NCBI RefSeq assembly: GCF_902805515.1
Contig: NZ_CADCTE010000056.1
Coordinates: forward strand, 1-49,348
Length of the DNA: 49,348 nt
Origin: an uncultured Arthrobacter sp.
Lineage (GTDB): Bacteria; Actinomycetota; Actinomycetes; Actinomycetales; Micrococcaceae
Direction: 5' to 3'
In this document: one piece after another, positions 1 to 33,543 of the stretch
Layout: every line of letters begins with the position of its first letter
Numbering within the stretch: the stretch's first letter is position 1
Translations under genes and position numbers: made by a program
Notes under the pieces: generated by a model
Database searches by the model: none
The model's input: only the letters and a program-made list of their open reading frames with translations
What the model was told of the DNA's origin: nothing

Positions 1-407
1 AGCCCCTCCGCCTCGAGCCGGCGGAACTCCGGCCAGGTGGCCCAGTCCCCCACGAGGTTCGAGTTGGCCAGCAGCACCCGCGGAGCCCACGGGTTGGTGC
101 GGAAAATGCCGACGGGCTTGCCTGACTGCACCAGCAGCGTTTCGTCGTCCTCGAGGTCCTCGAGGGAGCGCACGATGGCGTCGTAGGCCTCCCAGCTGCG
201 GGCGGCCCGGCCCGTCCCGCCGTACACCACGAGGTCCTCGGGGCGTTCGGCGACCTCGGGGTCGAGGTTGTTCATCAGCATCCGCAGCGGGGCCTCGGTC
301 TGCCAGCTCTTGGCCGTCCGGACCGTGCCGCGTGCGGCGCGGATGCTCCGGGACGGATCGGAGGTGGTGGCGCGGGGAGTCGGGGCGGTGGCCTCGGGTG
401 TGCTCAT
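1..407 (-). CDS. hutU: Urocanate hydratase, N-terminal part (cut by window edge)
   Basis: Urocanate hydratase is the second enzyme of histidine breakdown: it adds water to urocanate to give imidazolone propionate, using tightly bound NAD as an electrophile. Only the first 135 codons lie inside the window; the gene runs off the left edge. After a variable tail of about 40 residues comes the conserved urocanase start ([21 protein letters not shown]) and then a segment with [10 protein letters not shown], the family's N-terminal and NAD-contact region. The ATG at 407 overlaps the stop of the upstream IclR gene (ATGA), so the two are probably translationally coupled in one minus-strand operon. 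hutH is divergent 780 bases away. Identity is secure; completeness cannot be judged. Confidence 0.93.
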
Positions 408-1072
408 GCTGATTCTCCTTCAGGGGTTGCTGAGGTGACGGGGAGGATGGCGGCGGCCTCGCGGGCCACGTGCATCCCGATCCCTGCTGATTCGTCTTCT
501 CGAATGCGGTAGCTGGGCACGACGACGCTGAGCGCCGCGGCGATACGCCCTCCGGCGCGGACGGGGGCCGCGATGGCGGTGACGTCGGCTTCGACGCCGT
601 CGCGCACCACGACGTACCCCGTGGAGGGTGTCGTCCCCGAAAGGACAGCGCCGACCGCCGTCCCCTCAAGGGGGATGCTGCGGCCGACCCAGCTGGCGTG
701 GCGCACCGAGTGCGTGCCTTCGCGCACGGCGAGGTAGACCCCGTGGCCGTCGTGGGAGGGGACGCTGAGGTAGGCCGATTCCCCGGTCAGGCCGACGAGC
801 CGGTCAAGGGCCCCCTCGGCGAGGGAGACGAGGGATTCGGAGCTGAGCGCCTGGGCACCCAGCTGGACGACCCGCAGCCCCGCCCGGTAGCCGCCGGCGC
901 CGTCCCGGCGCACGAAGCCCGTGGATTCGAGGGTGCGCAGGAGCCGCAGCGCCGTCGAGGCCGAGAGCCCTGCGTCCCTCGCGGCCTCGGCCAGGGACAC
1001 CGTGCCCCGCTCGCACACCGCACCCAGGAGCAGCAACGCCCGCTCCACTGAGCGGGTTGAGGTATCTGCCAC
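404..1072 (-). CDS. IclR-family transcriptional regulator of the hut genes
   Basis: This 222-residue protein has the two-part IclR build. An N-terminal winged helix-turn-helix (residues about 3-60, with [24 protein letters not shown] and [19 protein letters not shown]) is followed by an effector-binding domain ([19 protein letters not shown], then [10 protein letters not shown] and [21 protein letters not shown]). The start is taken as GTG at 1072, preceded by a purine-rich AAGGGGA at SD distance; longer readings would run into antisense of hutH. It lies between hutU and hutH, divergent from hutH and overlapping hutU by ATGA, so it most likely controls the histidine pathway, as HutR of corynebacteria (also IclR type) does. 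The effector is unknown; histidine or urocanate is the natural guess. IclR proteins may repress or activate, and the sequence does not decide which. Confidence 0.88.
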
Positions 1073-1100
1073 TCGTATCCCCTTGCGCGTTGGTCGGATT

Positions 1101-1140
1101 TGTATTTCACTTATTGAAACTCCATTTTCACTCAATGGCA
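1101..1140. promoter_or_regulatory. Candidate IclR operator pair in the hutR/hutH divergent gap
   Basis: Two inverted repeats lie in the 111-bp gap. TTTCA (1105-1109), five bases, TGAAA (1115-1119) is perfect. CCATT (1122-1126), seven bases, AATGG (1134-1138) is also perfect. Both contain TTTCACT, and the two copies start 21 bases apart (1105 and 1126), two helical turns, so a protein could bind both on one face. The motif does not look like the TCTGwwATwCCAGA box I recall for corynebacterial HutR. Regulator assignment is by position only. Confidence 0.55.
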
Positions 1141-1183
1141 ATAGTCCGGTAAACCCCGGAGGCCATGCGAAGCGAGGCTCCCC

Positions 1184-2836
1184 ATGACTGCAGAGCACAC
1201 AGCCCCGGGCACCACCGGCACCCTTCCGGCCGTCCCGGCACCCGGCTCCGCCGCCGCCGGCATCGGCGGCGGACCCATCCGGATCGGCACCGGCCCCCTC
1301 ACTCCGGCCGAGGTCGTGGCGATCGCCCGCCACGGCGCGCAGGTGGAGCTCGACGGCGGCGCCCTCGAGGCGATGGCCGCCTCCCGCCGCGTTGTGGATC
1401 AGCTCGCCGGGGACACCACCCCCCACTACGGGGTCTCGACCGGCTTCGGCGCCCTGGCCACGAAGCACATCCCGCCCGCCCAGCGCACCCAGCTCCAGCG
1501 CAGCCTGATCCGCAGCCACGCGGCCTCCTCGGGGACGGAGGTGGACCGTGAGGTGGTGCGCGGGCTGATGCTCGGGCGGCTCTCGACCATGGCCACGGGC
1601 CGCACCGGCGTCCGGCCGGTGGTCGCCGAGACCTACGCGGCGATGCTCAATGCCGGCATCACCCCGGTGATCGGGGAGTACGGCTCCCTCGGGTGCTCCG
1701 GAGACCTCGCCCCGCTCTCCCACGTGGCACTTGCCCTCATGGGCGAGGGCGCCGTGCGCACCTCCGACGGTTCCACCGCCTCCGCCGCGGATGCCCTCGC
1801 GGCCGCCGGCATCGCTCCGGTCGAGCTGCGCGAAAAGGAGGGACTGGCGCTGATCAACGGCACCGACGGCATGCTCGGCATGCTGGTGCTCGCCTCGGCC
1901 GACCTGCACCGGCTGCTGAAGACAGCCGACCTCGCCGCCGCCATGAGTGTCGAGGGGCTCCTGTGCACCGACGCAGTCTTCGCCGCCGACCTGCACGAGC
2001 TGCGCCCGCACCCCGGACAGCGCGACTCCGCCGCGAACATCCGCACCCTCCTCAAGGATTCCGCGCTCATCGCCGCGGAGCTGACCGCCGAAACCGGACG
2101 CCACCGCTTCACCCGGGTCCAGGACGCCTACTCGCTGCGCTGCGCCCCGCAGGTCCACGGAGCGGCCCGGGCCACCCTCGCCCACGGCAACTCGGTGGCT
2201 GACATCGAACTCGGTTCGGCCATCGACAACCCGGTGATCACCCCCGACGGCAGGATCGAATCCAACGGCAACTTCCACGGCGCCCCCGTCGGCTACGTAC
2301 TCGACTTTCTCGCCATCGCCGTCGCCGACATCGCCTCGATGAGTGAACGCCGCACCGACCGTTTCCTCGACAAGGCACGCAACCACGGCCTCAACCCCTT
2401 CCTGGCCGACGATCCGGGGGTCGATTCGGGGCACATGATCGCCCAGTACACCTCCGCCGGGATCGTCTCGGAACTCAAGCGGCTCGCCAACCCTGCCTCG
2501 GTCGACTCCATCCCGTCCTCCGCCATGCAGGAGGACCACGTCTCCATGGGCTGGGCGGCGGGGCTGAAGCTGCGCCGCTCCCTCGACGGGCTCACCCGGG
2601 TCCTCGCCATCGAGATCCTCACCGCGGCCCGTGCCCTCGACCTGCGGGACGGCGGCCTGGCCACGGCACGCAGCTCGGAGGCCATCACCGCGGTGCGCCG
2701 GGTGCTGCGCCGGGACATCGAGGGCCCGGGCACCGACCGGTACCTCGCACCGGAGATCGAGGCCGCACGGGTGCTTGTCGACAACGGCTCGTTGATTGCC
2801 GCCGCCGAGGAAACGCTCGGGGCCCGACTGCTCTAG
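1184..2836 (+). CDS. hutH: Histidine ammonia-lyase
   Basis: HutH removes ammonia from L-histidine to make urocanate, the first step of histidine use. The 550 residues match the MIO-dependent aromatic amino acid lyase family; about 35 extra Ala/Pro-rich residues precede the core. The cofactor tripeptide is Cys171-Ser172-Gly173 within GSLGCSGDLAPLSH; the first residue is Cys instead of the usual Ala, while the Ser and Gly needed to cyclise are present. Other family landmarks are HYGVSTGFGALA, INGTDGM, VQDAYSLRCAPQVHG and the IESNGNFHG region. ATG at 1184 is chosen over an out-of-frame ATG at 1165; GAGG at 1174-1177 gives a modest SD. It is divergent from the IclR regulator and hutU, so the gap's palindromes probably govern both directions. 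I read it as an active lyase. Confidence 0.96.
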   Translation: MTAEHTAPGTTGTLPAVPAPGSAAAGIGGGPIRIGTGPLTPAEVVAIARHGAQVELDGGALEAMAASRRVVDQLAGDTTPHYGVSTGFGALATKHIPPAQRTQLQRSLIRSHAASSGTEVDREVVRGLMLGRLSTMATGRTGVRPVVAETYAAMLNAGITPVIGEYGSLGCSGDLAPLSHVALALMGEGAVRTSDGSTASAADALAAAGIAPVELREKEGLALINGTDGMLGMLVLASADLHRLLKTADLAAAMSVEGLLCTDAVFAADLHELRPHPGQRDSAANIRTLLKDSALIAAELTAETGRHRFTRVQDAYSLRCAPQVHGAARATLAHGNSVADIELGSAIDNPVITPDGRIESNGNFHGAPVGYVLDFLAIAVADIASMSERRTDRFLDKARNHGLNPFLADDPGVDSGHMIAQYTSAGIVSELKRLANPASVDSIPSSAMQEDHVSMGWAAGLKLRRSLDGLTRVLAIEILTAARALDLRDGGLATARSSEAITAVRRVLRRDIEGPGTDRYLAPEIEAARVLVDNGSLIAAAEETLGARLL

Positions 2837-25740: not shown

Positions 25741-25757
25741 CTGTAGGAGTCCTACAG
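25741..25757. promoter_or_regulatory. acc operator, copy 1 (accD)
   Basis: CTGTAGGA-G-TCCTACAG is a perfect inverted repeat with 8-bp arms and a one-base centre. It sits just upstream of a possible -10 (TAGACT, 25780-25785), over or next to the -35 region, suiting a repressor. The same core recurs upstream of accBC at 31596-31614. Confidence 0.7.
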
Positions 25758-25882
25758 TCGGAGGGGCCCCTTGGCTCACTAGACTGGGACGGTCGTTCGT
25801 TTTTTTGGAGGATTCCTCACAAGGAGCCCTCCGGAGGCGGCCGCGCCAGACGCCCGCCCTACCCCCTGCACTCGGAGATTCA

Positions 25883-27478
25883 ATGAAGCAAGACGTGGAA
25901 CCCGACCTCAAGACGACCGCCGGCAAGCTCGCCGATTTCCGGCGCCGGCAGAGCCAGTCGCTGCTGCCTTCGGGCCCCGAAGCCGTTGAACGCCAGCACG
26001 CCCGCGGCAAGAACACGGCCCGCGAACGCATCGACCTCCTCGTCGACCCCGGGTCCTTCGTCGAGTTCGACGCCCTGGCCGTCCACCGCTCCAACGCGTT
26101 CGGCATGGACAAGAAGCGGCCCCTCGGGGACGGCGTGGTCTCCGGCTACGCCACCGTCGACGGGCGCCTCATCGGGATCTACAGCCAGGACTTCACCGTC
26201 TTCGGCGGCTCCCTCAGCCAGGTCAACGGCGAGAAGATCGTGAAGGTCCAGGAGTTCGCGCTGCGCAACGGCTGCCCGGTGGTGGGCATCAACGACGGCG
26301 GCGGGGCCCGCATCCAGGAGGGCGTGGCCTCCCTGGCCATGTTCGCCGACATCTTCCGCAACAACGTCCATGCCTCCGGCGTCGTCCCCCAGATTTCCCT
26401 GATCCTCGGACCGTGCGCGGGCGGGGCCGCCTACTCGCCGGCCCTGACCGACTACGTGGTGATGGTGGACAAGACCTCCCACATGTTCATCACGGGCCCG
26501 GACGTCATCAAGACCGTCACCGGCGAGGACGTCGACATGGAGACCCTCGGCGGCGCACGCCAGCACAACACCACCACCGGCACCTCGACCTACCTCGCGG
26601 CCGACGAACAGGACGCCATCGGCTTCGTGCGCGAACTGCTCGACTATCTGCCCTCGAACAACCTCGCCGAGGCCCCGCTCGGGGAGTTCACCGAGATGCT
26701 CGAGACGACGCTCGAGGACGAGGCCCTCGACACGCTGATCCCCGACTCCGCGAACCAGCCCTACGACATGCACGCAGTGATCGCCGCGATCGTCGACGAC
26801 GGCCACTTCCTGGAGATGCAGGCGCTCTACGCACCGAACGTGCTCATCGGGTACGCCCGGGTGGAGGGCCACACCATCGGCATCGTCGCCAACCAGCCGA
26901 TGCAGTTCGCCGGGACCCTCGACATCAACGCCTCAGAGAAGGCCGCCCGTTTCGTCCGCCACTGCGACGCGTTCAACATCCCCATCCTGACCCTGGTCGA
27001 CGTTCCGGGCTTCCTGCCCGGCAAGGACCAGGAGTTCAACGGCATCATCCGCCGCGGCGCGAAGCTCCTCTACGCCTACGCCGAGGCGACCGTGCCCAAG
27101 GTGACGGTGATTACCCGCAAGGCCTACGGCGGGGCATACATCGTGATGGGCTCCAAGAAGCTCGGCGCGGACCTCAACCTGGCCTGGCCGACGGCGCAGA
27201 TCGGCGTCATGGGCGCCCAGGGCGCGGTGAACATCCTCTACCGCGGCCACCTGAAGGCCGTCGCGGAGGCCGGCGGCGACGTCGAGGCGGCACGCGCCGA
27301 GGTGGTCCAGCAGTACGAAGAGGAGCTGCTCAACCCGTACCAGGCGGCGCAGCTCGGCTATGTCGACGCCGTCATCGCCCCCTCCGACACCCGGGTTCAG
27401 GTGGTGCGGGCGCTGCGGGCGCTGCGTGACAAGCGGGCCACCCTGCCCGCCAAGAAGCACGGGAACATCCCGCTGTGA
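25883..27478 (+). CDS. accD: Acyl-CoA carboxylase, carboxyltransferase (beta) subunit
   Basis: This subunit transfers CO2 from carboxybiotin to acetyl-CoA, propionyl-CoA or longer acyl-CoAs. The 531 residues resemble mycobacterial AccD5/PccB across the length. N-terminal features are [17 protein letters not shown] and [13 protein letters not shown]; the active site is formed by GGARIQEGV with [20 protein letters not shown] and, in the second half, [52 protein letters not shown] and [13 protein letters not shown]. The exact acyl-chain preference cannot be read off. ATG 25883 has GGAG five bases before it. The stop overlaps the accE start. Upstream are the acc operator, a T7 tract and a leader of about 90 bases. 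Confidence 0.94.
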
Positions 27479-27693
27479 GCACCGGCACCCCGGAGGAGGA
27501 ACCGCTGCTGCGCGTGGTGGCAGGGAACCCCACTGACGAAGAGGTGGCCGCGCTGACCGCCGTCGTCCTGGCGATGGCGGACTCAGGGGACTCGAATGAC
27601 CGGCGCCATCCGGGCCGGGCGTGGCTGCGCCGGACCCTGCTGCGCCTGCACCCGCTGCCCGGGCCGGGCTCCTGGCGGCGCAGCGGCAGGTAG
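27475..27693 (+). CDS. accE: Acyl-CoA carboxylase epsilon subunit
   Basis: A 72-residue accessory subunit, found only in actinobacteria, that helps the alpha and beta subunits of acyl-CoA carboxylase assemble. The opening [21 protein letters not shown] is the family hallmark; the end [11 protein letters not shown] is likewise typical. GTG 27475 overlaps the accD stop (GTGA), so its output is tied to accD. The gene converges on the serpin gene with only 44 bases between the stops and no obvious hairpin. Confidence 0.9.
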
Positions 27694-27737
27694 GCGCAGC
27701 GCACACCGCCGCGTGCCCGCGGTCCGGGGCCTGCCGG

Positions 27738-29024
27738 TCAGCGCGGGTCCGTGACGGTTCCGAGGAACAGGGGCAGGCCGGTGGCCTCGTGGAGCACTGC
27801 GTAGAGGAACGGCCGGTCAACCTCGACCACCAGTTCCGGATCGACCGGCACCGAGGTGGCCATCAGTTCGAACTGGGTCACCGCCGCGGCGACCGTCCCC
27901 TTCTCCCCGACGGTGATCGAGGCGGCCTGGGCCGCCGCTGAGACGACCGCGTCGGGCTGGATTGCGGAAAGGTCCGGTGCACCGCCAAGGGTTTCCCGCA
28001 GGCCGAGCCTGCGCAGCAGCGGCAGCAGGTCGAAGGCGCTGTCGGACTCCCAGCGCGGCAGGCCAAGCCCCAGGAAGACCTCGCCGGCCTCCTCCATCGC
28101 CCTCGCAACCTCAAGCAGAGCCTCCTTCGAGCACGCAGGCAGGGCGGGCCCGTCGTCGGACCCGGCGTCGCCGGCGGCGAGCACGACCCGCAGCACGAAC
28201 CCCTCGGTGTAGGGGACGTCGACCGCCACCCACCGGGAGCCGGCGGCGTACCGGGCCGGAGTGCGGGTGTGCATTCGATCGACCGCCACGGTGGTGCCGT
28301 CGGGCAGCCGGAAGTCCTCGGGGTAGGTGCCGGACGGGTCGAAGGGCTCGGCCCAGGCGGCCGCGAAGTACGCGGTGTTGAGCAGCGACAGGGTCGTATC
28401 CGGGTTGTACTCGACGGGCGCCTCCGTCATGCGTCCACCGGTGGCCTCCGACACCCAGCGGTTCAGCACCGCCTCCGTTGCGGGATCGGCAAAGTCAACG
28501 GGATACACGCCGGCGCTGGAGTGGCGGGCCAGCGTGGCGAGGAAGGCGTCCCCGGTGGGCGTCTCCCGGTCCACGAACACGCCGTTGGCCAGGTGCAGCA
28601 CCGGGACGGCCGGCGGCTCCTGCGCGTTCGCCGCCCCGGGGTCGCCGTCGTACGGTGCGAGCCGGGCCAGCAGGGCCTCAAGGGCCGTCGTGCTGCCCTC
28701 CGCCGGCAAGCCCAGGACGGCGTCGAGTTCGGCGGCCGTGCTTGAGCCGGCTCCGGCCCGCAGCATCAGCAGGGCGCACAGGGCACTGACCGGGCTCGTG
28801 ACGACGTTTTTCCCGGGCGCTCCGGCCAGCAGCGCCGCGCCCAACTGGTAGGCACTCCGGCGCAGGGCCTCCTCCGGTGACACCGGCCCCGGCCGGTCGT
28901 CCCGTCCAGGGCGCCGGTCCTGAGCACGAACCCGTCCCCCGTCCTGTTCCTGTTCCCGGTCCTGTTCCCGTCCCTGGTCCTGGTCCTGAAAATTCCTCCG
29001 CGGGTCCCCCGCCGCCGTATTCAT
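27738..29024 (-). CDS. Serpin-family protease inhibitor
   Basis: A 428-residue serpin. Residues about 60-100 carry NVVTSPVSALCALLMLRAGA, TAYFAAAWAEPFDP follows mid-protein, and the C-terminal signature is VEVDRPFLYAVLHEATGLPL then FLGTVTDP. The reactive-centre hinge EKGTVAAAVT (374-383) fits the inhibitory pattern, small residues at P12-P9, so loop insertion and protease trapping are expected. By hinge counting P1-P1' is Thr390-Ser391. There is no signal peptide or lipobox; residues 13-28 are a Gln/Asp/Glu/Arg run encoded by eight imperfect six-base repeats (28941-28988). TAGGGT lies six bases before the ATG (leaderless). It sits between accE and a divergent DUF885 gene. Target unknown; an intracellular protease is the natural inference. 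Confidence 0.9.
   Translation of the reverse strand: MNTAAGDPRRNFQDQDQGREQDREQEQDGGRVRAQDRRPGRDDRPGPVSPEEALRRSAYQLGAALLAGAPGKNVVTSPVSALCALLMLRAGAGSSTAAELDAVLGLPAEGSTTALEALLARLAPYDGDPGAANAQEPPAVPVLHLANGVFVDRETPTGDAFLATLARHSSAGVYPVDFADPATEAVLNRWVSEATGGRMTEAPVEYNPDTTLSLLNTAYFAAAWAEPFDPSGTYPEDFRLPDGTTVAVDRMHTRTPARYAAGSRWVAVDVPYTEGFVLRVVLAAGDAGSDDGPALPACSKEALLEVARAMEEAGEVFLGLGLPRWESDSAFDLLPLLRRLGLRETLGGAPDLSAIQPDAVVSAAAQAASITVGEKGTVAAAVTQFELMATSVPVDPELVVEVDRPFLYAVLHEATGLPLFLGTVTDPR
28941..28988. repeat. Hexanucleotide low-complexity run in the serpin gene
   Basis: Eight consecutive six-base units of the form GTCCTG/TTCCTG/TTCCCG encode a Gln/Asp/Arg/Glu tract near the serpin N-terminus. Gain or loss of units would keep the frame. 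Confidence 0.7.
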
Positions 29025-29030
29025 GCCCTC

Positions 29031-29036
29031 ACCCTA
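29031..29036 (-). promoter_or_regulatory. Leaderless -10 element of the serpin gene
   Basis: TAGGGT on the minus strand, exactly six bases before ATG 29024. Confidence 0.55.
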
Positions 29037-29143
29037 GGGGTCCCGAGGAAGGGAAGGGGGGGTTTTCGCGCGGCGCCGCGCTGAGGCGCCCGACCTGCTC
29101 CGGATATTTCGGCCGAACCGTAGCCCGGGGCAACGGACGGCGC

Positions 29144-29149
29144 TAGGCT
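29144..29149 (+). promoter_or_regulatory. Leaderless -10 element of the DUF885 gene
   Basis: TAGGCT, six bases before GTG 29156; divergent from the serpin promoter 108 bases away. Confidence 0.6.
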
Positions 29150-29155
29150 CGGGCT

Positions 29156-30892
29156 GTGACCAACGAGACTTCCCCTGCCTCCACCCCTTCCACCCCGTCC
29201 TCCGGCTCCGGCTCCGAGGGTGCCGCACGCCAGCCGACGGCCATCGACGCCGTCGCGGAGACCTACACCGCCACCCTGACCCGGTTGGACCCCGGATTCG
29301 CCACGGTCCTCGGCGTGCCCGGCCGGGAGACCGAATTCCGTGACTACTCCCCGGCCGGCGTTGAGGCCTTCGCCGAAGCGGCCCGCTCCGCCCTGGCCGA
29401 CCTTTCCGGACTCGAGCCGGTCGACGACGTCGACGCCGTGACCCTCGACGCGATGCGCGAACGCCTCGGGCTTGAACTGGAGATCCATGAGACCGGGGCG
29501 AACCTTTCGGAGCTCAACAACCTCGAAAGCCCCGCCCAGAACGTCCGGGCCATCTTCGACCTCATGCCGACGGCCACCGAGGAGCACTGGGCGCACATCG
29601 CCGGCCGCCTGTCGAACGTCCCGGCCGCCCTCTCGGGCTACATCACCTCCCTGCGCCGCGGACGGGAGCTGGGCCTTGTCGCTGCCGCCCGCCAGATCGG
29701 CATCGTCATCGAGCAGGTCACCCGGTACGCCGAGGACGGCGGCTTCTTCGACAGCTTCGCCGCGGGCGCGGCCACGGACGACGGGCCCGTGACCGGGCCG
29801 CTCGCCGCCGAGCTGCGCAGCGGAGCCGAGGCCGCCCGCCAGGCCTACCGCGGGCTCGCCGCGTTCCTGCAGGAGGAGCTGCTGCCCGGTGCCCCCACCA
29901 AGGACGCCGTCGGCCGTGAACGCTACGCCCTGATGTCGCGCCTGTTCCTCGGGTCCGCCGTCGACCTCGAGGAGACCTACCAGTGGGGCGTCGAGGAACT
30001 CGACCGCATCATCGCCGAACAGGAGGCGGTCGCCTCGGAGATCCGGCCCGGTGCCTCCATCGAGGAGGCCATCTCGGTCCTCGATGCCGATCCGGCCCGC
30101 CAGCTCCACGGCACCGACGCGCTGCGCGAGTGGATGCAGGAGCTGTCCGACGGCGCGGTGCAGGCCCTGGCCGGCGTGCACTTCGACATTCCCGACATCA
30201 TGCGCACCCTCGAATGCCGGATCGCCCCCACCCACGAGGGCGGCATCTACTACACCGGCCCCAGCGACGATTTCTCCCGGCCCGGCCGCATGTGGTGGTC
30301 AGTGCCCGAGGGTGAGGACTCGTTCACCACCTGGAAGGAGACGACGACCGTCTACCACGAGGGCGTCCCGGGCCACCACCTCCAGGTCGCCACCGCGGTC
30401 TACCAGCGGCGGCTGTTGAACGCCTGGCGGCGCAACGCCGTCTGGGTCTCCGGCCAGGGCGAGGGGTGGGCGCTGTACGCCGAACGCCTGATGCAGGAGC
30501 TCGGCTTCCTCAACGATCCGGGCGACCGGCTCGGGATGCTCGACGCCCAGCGGATGCGTGCGGCGCGCGTGGTCTTCGACATCGGCGTCCACCTCGAACT
30601 CGAGGTGCCGCAGCGGTGGGGCTCGGGAACGTGGACCCCTGAGAAGGGCTACGAATTCCTCCGCAGCAACATCGCCATCAGCGAGGGCCAGCTGAACTTC
30701 GAGTTCAACCGGTACCTGGGCTGGCCCGGGCAGGCGCCCTCCTACAAGGTGGGGCAGCGGCTCTGGGAGCAGATCCGCGACGAGGTCAAGGAACGCGAGG
30801 GCGCAGCCTTCGACCTGCGGGCCTTCCACACCCGGGCGCTCAACCTCGGGTCGGTGGGGCTGGACACGCTCCGCCGGGCGCTGCTGAGCTAG
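29156..30892 (+). CDS. DUF885-family metallopeptidase-like protein
   Basis: A 578-residue DUF885 protein, probably a zinc-dependent peptidase or carboxypeptidase; the family is poorly characterised. The likely metal site is VYHEGVPGHHLQ, with His401, Glu402 and His407 in an HExxPGH pattern, backed by GEGWALYAERLMQELGF, which should supply a further ligand. An N-terminal 30-residue Ser/Thr/Pro-rich stretch is not a signal peptide, so the protein should be cytoplasmic. GTG 29156 begins six bases after TAGGCT (leaderless). A perfect 11-bp hairpin follows the stop. It is divergent from the serpin gene: an inhibitor beside a peptidase-like enzyme is suggestive, but serpins normally target serine or cysteine proteases, so they need not be partners. 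Confidence 0.85.
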   Translation: MTNETSPASTPSTPSSGSGSEGAARQPTAIDAVAETYTATLTRLDPGFATVLGVPGRETEFRDYSPAGVEAFAEAARSALADLSGLEPVDDVDAVTLDAMRERLGLELEIHETGANLSELNNLESPAQNVRAIFDLMPTATEEHWAHIAGRLSNVPAALSGYITSLRRGRELGLVAAARQIGIVIEQVTRYAEDGGFFDSFAAGAATDDGPVTGPLAAELRSGAEAARQAYRGLAAFLQEELLPGAPTKDAVGRERYALMSRLFLGSAVDLEETYQWGVEELDRIIAEQEAVASEIRPGASIEEAISVLDADPARQLHGTDALREWMQELSDGAVQALAGVHFDIPDIMRTLECRIAPTHEGGIYYTGPSDDFSRPGRMWWSVPEGEDSFTTWKETTTVYHEGVPGHHLQVATAVYQRRLLNAWRRNAVWVSGQGEGWALYAERLMQELGFLNDPGDRLGMLDAQRMRAARVVFDIGVHLELEVPQRWGSGTWTPEKGYEFLRSNIAISEGQLNFEFNRYLGWPGQAPSYKVGQRLWEQIRDEVKEREGAAFDLRAFHTRALNLGSVGLDTLRRALLS

Positions 30893-30896
30893 CTCT

Positions 30897-30922
30897 CCGG
30901 GGCGGGCCGCCGCCCGCCCCGG
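30897..30922 (+). terminator. Hairpin after the DUF885 gene
   Basis: CCGGGGCGGGC (30897-30907) and GCCCGCCCCGG (30912-30922) form a perfect 11-bp stem with a 4-base loop, five bases after the stop. Confidence 0.75.
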
Positions 30923-30946
30923 TTCCCGGCCGGCCCGCCGCCTGCA

Positions 30947-30952
30947 TAGGGT
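30947..30952 (+). promoter_or_regulatory. Leaderless -10 element of maf
   Basis: TAGGGT, exactly six bases before ATG 30959. Confidence 0.55.
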
Positions 30953-30958
30953 AGGGGA

Positions 30959-31591
30959 ATGACTCCGCGCCTGATCCTCGCCTCGGCCTCCCCCGCCCGC
31001 ACCAAACTCCTTCGGGAGGCCGGCATCCGGCACACCACCCTCGTCTCGGACGTCGACGAGGCCGCCGTCGCGGCCGGGTACGGGGAGCTCGACGCCTACG
31101 ACACCTCCCTGCTGCTCGCGCGGGCCAAGGCCGAAGCGGTCGCCTCCCTGCCCGAGGCCGAGGACGCCCTCGTGGTGGGGTGCGACTCCATCTTCGAATT
31201 CGAGGGTGAGGCGCACGGCAAGCCCTACGAGCCCGACGTCGCCCGCGCCCGGATCCGGCGTATGAGCGGCTCCTCGGGGGTGCTTCACACCGGTCACTGG
31301 CTGGTCGACAACCGGGAGAACGGTTCGGGCGCCACCATCGGCGGGGTCAACTCCGCCACCGTCCACTTCGGGGTGATGTCCGAGCAGGAGGTGGACGCCT
31401 ACGTCGCCAGCGGGGAGCCCCTTCACTGCGCCGGCTCCTTCACCATCGACGGGCTGGGCGGTGCCTTCATCGAACGGATCGAGGGCGATCCGCACACCGT
31501 GGTCGGGCTCAGCATCTCCACGCTCCGCGCGCTGCTGGCCTCGGCGGGCGTCCCGGTGACCGACCTGTGGGAATCCGCGGACCGCGCCTGA
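30959..31591 (+). CDS. maf: Maf-family nucleoside triphosphate pyrophosphatase
   Basis: A 210-residue house-cleaning enzyme that hydrolyses non-canonical or methylated nucleoside triphosphates to monophosphates. The start LILASASPARTKLLREAGI is the phosphate-binding signature (S-x-S-P-R/A-R type), followed by LARAKAEAVA, VVGCDSIFEFEGEAHGKPYEP, the acidic catalytic region, and AYVASGEPLHCAGSFTIDGLG near the C-terminus. TAGGGT six bases before the ATG suggests a leaderless transcript. As I recall, maf also lies between accE and accA3 in mycobacteria, so its position here, before accBC, reflects old gene order. Confidence 0.93.
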   Translation: MTPRLILASASPARTKLLREAGIRHTTLVSDVDEAAVAAGYGELDAYDTSLLLARAKAEAVASLPEAEDALVVGCDSIFEFEGEAHGKPYEPDVARARIRRMSGSSGVLHTGHWLVDNRENGSGATIGGVNSATVHFGVMSEQEVDAYVASGEPLHCAGSFTIDGLGGAFIERIEGDPHTVVGLSISTLRALLASAGVPVTDLWESADRA

Positions 31592-31595
31592 GCGA

Positions 31596-31614
31596 TTTGT
31601 AGGACCCCTACAAA
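31596..31614. promoter_or_regulatory. acc operator, copy 2 (accBC)
   Basis: TTTGTAGG-ACC-CCTACAAA has perfect 8-bp arms and a three-base centre. Aligned with the accD copy it shares the core TGTAGGANYCCTACA (13 of 17 positions). It lies four bases after the maf stop and 96 bases before the accBC ATG. A possible -10 (TAGGCT, 31675-31680) is 60 bases downstream, so its placement relative to the promoter differs from copy 1. Confidence 0.7.
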
Positions 31615-31710
31615 GGAAGGGCCCGCAACACGCAACGACGGCACCGTTTATGGGCGGAATCAACAATTAGACGCTAGGCTCCGATCAGACCCGAAGGAGC
31701 ATTCCACCCC

Positions 31711-33543
<1,833 letters not shown>

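Follow-up and report, generated by a model that had tools for sequence, protein, structure and literature searches.

The locus studied here raises the question of whether two unlinked acyl-CoA carboxylase genes, accD and accBC, answer to a single regulator and, if so, to which one. The window, by which we mean the whole analysed stretch of 49,348 nucleotides from an uncultured Arthrobacter sp., is contig C56 of an assembly of 3.74 Mb (207 contigs, 91% complete, 3.9% contamination). A preliminary description of the window had pointed to a palindrome upstream of each gene and had proposed a shared operator, through which a common repressor would balance the two subunits. Judging from the sequences compared below, the two boxes are probably operators of a PucR-type FasR, a member of the Streptomyces FasR / mycobacterial MabR family, that would jointly tune accD (with accE), accBC, fabD and fasR itself, most likely by activation.

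Two related boxes precede accD and accBC

The genes and their main boxes are located as follows.

25741..25757: predicted FasR-type main box of accD, CTGTAGGAGTCCTACAG, centred on 25749, near -43 relative to the inferred start
25883..27478, plus strand: accD, beta subunit (carboxyltransferase) of acyl-CoA carboxylase, 531 aa, Pfam Carboxyl_trans 655 bits
27475..27693, plus strand: accE, epsilon subunit of acyl-CoA carboxylase, Pfam ACC_epsilon 68 bits
31596..31614: predicted FasR-type main box of accBC, TTTGTAGGACCCCTACAAA, centred on 31605, near -82 relative to the inferred start
31711..33543, plus strand: accBC, alpha subunit (biotin carboxylase and biotin carrier), 610 aa, Pfam Biotin_carb_N, CPSase_L_D2, Biotin_carb_C and Biotin_lipoyl

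The start of accE overlaps the stop of accD and accE is thus probably carried on the accD transcript. Allowing up to three mismatches, the core TGTAGGANYCCTACA gave eight strand-matches at four places of the window, as compared to 1.51 expected, and none of 100 dinucleotide shuffles reached eight. Exact matches are found only at the accD and accBC boxes. The other two places (37148 and 47108) have three mismatches and were taken as chance. A symmetric position weight matrix (PWM), built from relatives and from the own genome, also ranks the two boxes as the top two positions of the window (accBC 29.3 bits, accD 18.1 bits), the third being 25806-25820 (10.4 bits).

Both palindromes of the preliminary description are thus in place, far above chance in shuffles, and its wording can be refined. 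Perfect symmetry holds for the 8-bp arms TTTGTAGG/CCTACAAA of the accBC box and not for its middle ACC, which is not self-complementary. The proposed core was too narrow in the middle: the conserved unit consists of two arms flanking three freer bases. Finally, the statement that the window holds no third copy is correct at zero to one mismatch, with a weaker third element at 25806-25820.

A third site lies beside a PucR-type regulator gene

A search of the whole genome finds the exact core three times, at accD, at accBC and at C136:32971. The latter site is located between a 434-codon open reading frame (ORF) encoding a regulator and fabD, which is followed by fabH (genes named by eye, regulator and fabD also by Pfam). 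The regulator gene is therefore directly upstream of fabD, on a contig other than the window. One-mismatch matches add two places, the fasR-fabD gap on the small contig C50 and C156:41707, which was discarded as it lies inside an ORF. At up to two mismatches, the genome is at control level (30 strand-matches vs 35 for the reversed pattern).

The regulator contains a PucR C-terminal domain (Pfam HTH_30, 62.0 bits) and a GGDEF-like domain (GGDEF_2, 50.7 bits). At the sequence level, it matches both solved domains of Mycobacterium tuberculosis MabR, 9f80 (1.3e-53) and 9fb1 (E 1.9e-20), as well as 3onq. The 9fb1 match covers residues 39-174, showing homology of the N-terminal part to MabR. The fasR gene also has an upstream box of its own, CTTTGTAGCTCTTCCACAAAA (L020:10286-10306, minus strand), followed by TATGCT and, six bases on, by the ATG (L020:10249-10306, minus strand). 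This layout recurs in most of the relatives listed and suggests that fasR is leaderless and autoregulated.

The nature of this regulator bears on a question raised in the preliminary description, namely whether the box might be the counterpart of fasO, the operator read by the TetR-type FasR of Corynebacterium glutamicum. That regulator has the same two targets, accBC and accD1 (PMC6460773), and its consensus is given as AAAANATGACNANNTCCTCATNTTT (PMC10933834). This consensus, with up to three mismatches, has no match in the window, and its best alignment at either promoter shows 9 of 20 mismatches. The short fasO core ATGACNANNTCCTCAT, also with up to three mismatches, is abundant in the window (22 matches, 4.23 expected, 0/100 shuffles reaching 22). 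None of these matches is in the two promoters, the nearest being inside accD (26523) and accBC (31919). No TetR domain was hit among 36 scanned ORFs of the 160 in the window, 7 of these 36 giving no family at all. Across the class, the exact box accompanies a PucR-type gene beside fabD (see below). Reading by a TetR-type FasR is very improbable and was rejected. The genome-wide search suggested in the preliminary description did find the core before fabD and next to a regulator gene, but this regulator is of the PucR type and not of the TetR type.

The boxes are conserved in the family

We searched 80 genomes of the family, representing 32 genera, for the pattern, FasR, AccD and AccBC. The upstream regions of 76 fabD, 80 accD and 79 accBC genes were compared; fabD regions are missing for three genomes devoid of FasR and for G067, where fasR is cut short, and the accBC region is also missing for G067. 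Exact sites number 63, in 43 genomes, vs nine for the reversed pattern, and 61 of the 63 belong to three promoters (fabD 15, accD 24, accBC 22). The best match has at most 2 of 12 mismatches at 75/76 fabD, 63/80 accD and 70/79 accBC promoters. At the same threshold, the reversed pattern gives zero at each promoter and shuffled regions are expected to give 1.1 (fabD), 1.0 (accD) and 0.5 (accBC). Two of the 63 accD matches (G049 and G068) stay under 14 bits and probably arose by chance. With a PWM score of at least 14 bits taken as presence, a box is found at accD in 68/80 genomes and at accBC in 72/79. In the 76 genomes having fasR and the three regions, the full set of boxes is found in 65, and the fabD box with at least one acc box in 75, vs 2/2350 in shuffles.

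Three sampled genomes of one genus (G002, G033 and G059; 2.0-2.5 Mb) lack FasR and have kept accD, accBC and fabD. No box reaches 14 bits in these genomes, the best scores being 7.2 (accD), 0.3 (accBC) and 9.4 (fabD). A box upstream of fasR was found in 27 of the 30 loci examined, out of 77 genomes with FasR. The accD and accBC boxes share the sequence, the conservation and the joint absence with fasR, and may well be read by the same regulator. One shared and conserved operator for two unlinked carboxylase genes, as proposed in the preliminary description, thus holds: the box is conserved upstream of both genes in relatives, and the sites are not scattered at random, neither in the own genome nor in the family.

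One of the two exact sites outside the three promoters, G006:C4:106166, lies between fabG and a gene of the short-chain dehydrogenase/reductase (SDR) family (NCBIfam PRK07806; L260:1145-2746). A box of at least 14 bits is found at the promoter of this SDR gene in 12 of 30 genomes examined, out of 79 having the gene, and in the own genome there is none. The SDR gene after fabG is likely a further, lineage-specific FasR target. The other site, G042:C15:11258, between LysR-like and transporter-like genes (by eye), was taken as chance. In genus g13 (G012, G042 and G066), the accBC box is missing and the accD box is kept. There, accD and accBC share a strand and are separated by about 0.9-1.2 kb, which looks as though a single promoter now served the two genes.

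The box accompanies fasR and fabD across the class

The exact 16-base form is present in 49 of 296 genomes of the class. We examined 30 loci, one per genome, 27 of which are from outside the family. In 24 of these 27, the exact box is found between fasR and fabD; in the other three (L270, L271 and L283), neither FasR nor FabD was seen.

A footprint oligonucleotide of M. tuberculosis MabR, GTTTTGTTGGTTATATACAAAAA (PMC11617747), allows a direct comparison. It fits TTTTGT-N9-ACAAAA without a mismatch, and its score with the family matrix (21.2 bits) exceeds that of the accD box of the window (18.1 bits). The own fabD site, CCTTGTAGGGTTCCTACAAAG, keeps TTGT-N9-ACAAA and has outermost bases that differ from this layout. 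In the named loci read downstream of fasR (best 80 of 542 confirmed stretches), 27/80 match TTTTGT-N9-ACAAAA with zero to two mismatches and the reversed pattern never has fewer than three. Exact matches after fasR occur in eight of these best 80 loci, all from Streptomyces. It is very probable that these boxes are operators of the FasR/MabR class, and the linkage of fasR with fabD, the joint absence and the layout of the MabR site point to a PucR-type FasR/MabR protein as their likely reader.

Another transcription factor could in principle read the box and merely accompany fasR, binding by this FasR being deduced from sequence. With a homologue, MabR, footprinted on a site of the same layout, and with boxes absent where fasR is absent, we regard this as improbable.

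The acc promoters behave differently outside the family. At accBC, examined in 20 out of 271 genomes having an AccBC hit, all 20 have three to five mismatches, that is the control level, the reversed pattern also giving three to five. With the matrix, a weak site (5.8-11.6 bits) is found at -38 to -49 in five of the six genomes of family f4. At accD, five of 30 loci have two mismatches, one has three and 24 have four to six, as compared to two with three and 28 with four to six for the reversed pattern. The six best accD loci are those of five of the six f4 genomes and of the one f8 genome, the two families being of the same order, and TAGAGT follows the accD box in the five f4 loci. Since acc sites outside the family are weak or near control, those seen being in f4 and f8, the fabD site appears to be the older one and the acc genes appear to have been recruited later.

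Promoter geometry and the sign of control

The promoter elements and second boxes are as follows.

25780..25785, plus strand: candidate -10 element of accD, TAGACT
25806..25820: putative second box of accD, TGGAGGATTCCTCAC, 64 bp past the main box, about +22 from the inferred start, 10.4 bits
31651..31665: putative second box of accBC, TGGGCGGAATCAACA, very degenerate, 53 bp past the first box, over the -35 zone
31675..31680, plus strand: candidate -10 element of accBC, TAGGCT

At accD, TAGACT starts at box start +38, each base being conserved at 85-89% over 27 genera, and no conserved -35 element is seen between box and -10 across these genera. The centre of the box is accordingly near -43. 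At accBC, the -10 element starts 77-78 bases past the box start and the box centre is near -82. The fasR box is centred near -46 from the inferred start. At fabD, a conserved AGCTTGGT at +28 to +35 resembles a -35 element and would place the box centre near -57. Activators usually bind at -41.5, -61.5 and helical-turn steps. The positions of the boxes favour activation over plain repression, and activation of the acc promoters by FasR appears rather likely from this geometry. The repressor balancing two subunits, put forward in the preliminary description, is thus too narrow a view: the box is found at fabD and fasR as well, and the distances of the main boxes from the -10 elements are activator-like.

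In the proposed mechanism, FasR would bind sites resembling TTTGTAGG-N3-CCTACAAA upstream of fasR, fabD, accD(E) and accBC. It would thereby set malonyl-CoA supply and the capacity of type II fatty-acid synthase (FAS II) together. It would most likely activate from main boxes at about -43 (accD, devoid of a -35), -82 (accBC), -46 (fasR) and perhaps -57 (fabD). Its ligand may be an acyl-CoA.

The positions of the main boxes also bear on the possibility that the palindromes, which are inverted repeats, form RNA hairpins acting as leader attenuators or terminators. Located upstream of conserved -10 elements, the main boxes would not be transcribed from those promoters, and their arms have a fixed sequence in common with a footprinted protein site. 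Such hairpins are extremely improbable.

A second, phased box at accD

Taken alone, the second box of accD is not significant, 3/20 shuffled windows having a maximum of at least 10.4 bits. In the family, a second box of at least 6 bits is found downstream of the main accD box in 49/63 genomes, vs 0.7% in shuffled sequences. The spacings are 54 (1 genome), 64 (30), 65 (8), 75 (1), 76 (5), 87 (2), 98 (1) and 100 (1), and the -10 element sits between the two boxes. These steps near 11 bp suggest that the second site keeps its helix face while the distance changes. The phasing has R = 0.93 at a period of 11 (n = 26; one value per genus and spacing), a figure whose significance is overstated because most values come from one inherited spacing (64/65) and five periods were tried in the scan.

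At accBC, the second box of the own genome scores 1.4 bits and is not significant alone. In the family, a site of at least 4 bits is found in 32/70 genomes (shuffles 1.4%), 31 of the 32 being at a spacing of 53 or 54, and a site of at least 6 bits in 16/70. No recurring second site was seen in the fabD promoter regions of the family.

With second boxes on the same helix face (at accD, more weakly at accBC), FasR molecules bound to both boxes may make contact and, when occupancy is high, damp the promoter. In solution, MabR forms mainly tetramers and dimers, and it has two dimer interfaces (PMC11617747), which would make a contact between two FasR sites possible. We consider contact with damping a tentative idea and somewhat doubtful. 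A speculative extension, itself unlikely, would be a two-state rheostat. In this model, FasR activates accD(E) and accBC from the strong box; at high occupancy, FasR on the weaker, phased accD box joins it and shuts the promoter, giving negative feedback on malonyl-CoA supply, and the acc sites were recruited after an ancestral fabD site.

The second boxes also speak for a model in which the same regulator reads the same boxes but mainly represses accD and accBC, by roadblock or loop. Downstream of the -10 element (accD) and over the -35 zone (accBC) are usual places for repression, and overexpression of MabR was first interpreted as repression (PMC5541348). However, the strong boxes precede the promoters, with centres near -43 and -82, and accD has no -35 element, as is often the case for activator-dependent promoters. 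Moreover, fasII falls on MabR depletion, and Streptomyces coelicolor FasR induces its operon (PMC5541348). A mainly repressing FasR seems unlikely to us.

Points that weigh against activation by a PucR-type FasR

Several observations count against the preferred reading, that is joint tuning of the four promoters by a PucR-type FasR acting as an activator. At the class level, 53/80 of the named loci (best 80 of 542) have three to five mismatches to TTTTGT-N9-ACAAAA. At fabD beside the best FasR hits outside the family, only 12/27 loci have one or two mismatches and 15 have three to five, the reversed pattern giving five with three and 22 with four or five. In the family, incomplete sets are found among the 76 genomes (seven with fabD and accBC, three with fabD and accD, and G043 with fabD only), and the matrix was trained on the same promoters that it scores. 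The joint absence of fasR and boxes is confined to one genus and counts as one event.

As to the geometry, from which the sign of control is deduced, the -10 element of accBC is less conserved (62-76% at the listed bases) than those of accD and fasR, which are clear. The -10 element of fabD is ambiguous, and another choice would put the box near -32. The second sites of the window itself are weak (10.4 and 1.4 bits). In addition, the authors of the MabR study conclude that DNA favours the dimer, their gel-shift oligonucleotide being one short site (PMC11617747). This makes bridging, and with it the preferred reading, less likely and plain repression slightly likelier.

Finally, the bin contains a second fasR-fabD copy, on contig C50 (3.9 kb), which is 95.4% identical to Arthrobacter crusticola DNA, vs 85.4% for the C136 copy. 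The C50 and C136 copies differ by 15%. This divergence and the A. crusticola match of C50 suggest that the bin probably mixes two strains at fasR-fabD, one of the copies probably being foreign. Either copy may be the partner of the window, and both carry the box.

Comparison with known systems

In S. coelicolor, FasR (SCO2386) is a PucR-type activator of fabDHPF whose gene is also directly before fabD. It is described as an activator with a predicted site at about -67 (PMC7324645, PMC5541348). The inner bases of Streptomyces sites differ from AGGNNNCCT. We found no report of acc genes among the targets of S. coelicolor FasR in the literature covered, which does not include the founding description (Arabolaza 2010). 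MabR (Rv2242) of M. tuberculosis, a PucR-type activator of the fasII operon, has the same half-site layout and both its domains match by sequence. In the parts of the source consulted, it controls the operon beside its own gene, whereas here separate accD and accBC promoters are concerned, accD having a second, phased site. Activation of targets and sensing of long-chain acyl-CoA are reported for MabR, and M. smegmatis MabR and S. coelicolor FasR are both presented as activators (PMC5541348).

The TetR-type FasR of C. glutamicum likewise has accBC and accD1 among its targets, alongside fatty-acid synthase genes, the two acc genes sharing one operator type (PMC6460773). It differs in protein family and operator, is a repressor, and its synthases are of type I (FAS I). 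Control of the same two genes by a TetR-type and a PucR-type FasR looks convergent. AccR (LysR-type) of Shewanella and SAV5279/AccR (TetR) of Streptomyces avermitilis also act at acc promoters (PMC11602165); their families and target sets differ from those of the PucR-type FasR. The same 2024 paper, in the parts consulted, describes acc-specific regulators as elusive, with only TetR-type ones confirmed at acc promoters besides its own LysR-type regulator. No report placing sites of a PucR-type FasR at acc genes of this family was found in the literature, the search not covering Arabolaza 2010 on S. coelicolor FasR, which may hold a motif or targets. The kind of system is known; what appears to be new, within the searches made, is that both carboxylase genes have been recruited and that accD has a phased second site.

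Neighbouring genes

The accD and accBC genes are separated by about 4.2 kb containing accE, a serpin-like gene on the opposite strand, a DUF885 gene and maf. Upstream of accD are birA and an SDR gene. The serpin-family gene (27738-29024, minus strand, 217 bits), of a kind not common in bacteria, is flanked by accE and the DUF885 gene. Elsewhere in the window, an ORF of 711 codons (404-2539, minus strand) shows IclR regulator domains only from residue 497 on, which may reflect a false ORF start or a gene fusion.

Implications

Little is known of how the transcription of acetyl-CoA carboxylase is coupled to fatty-acid synthesis. In most of the genera sampled from this family of soil bacteria, a single conserved operator connects the two carboxylase genes with FAS II and with fasR. 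If the rheostat model is true, a PucR-type regulator would govern FAS II and the two core carboxylase genes as a single unit. The phased second site would also offer a hypothesis for why MabR was reported first as a repressor and later as an activator. As this route is unrelated to that of Corynebacterium, common control of these two genes seems to have arisen twice, by way of different protein families.

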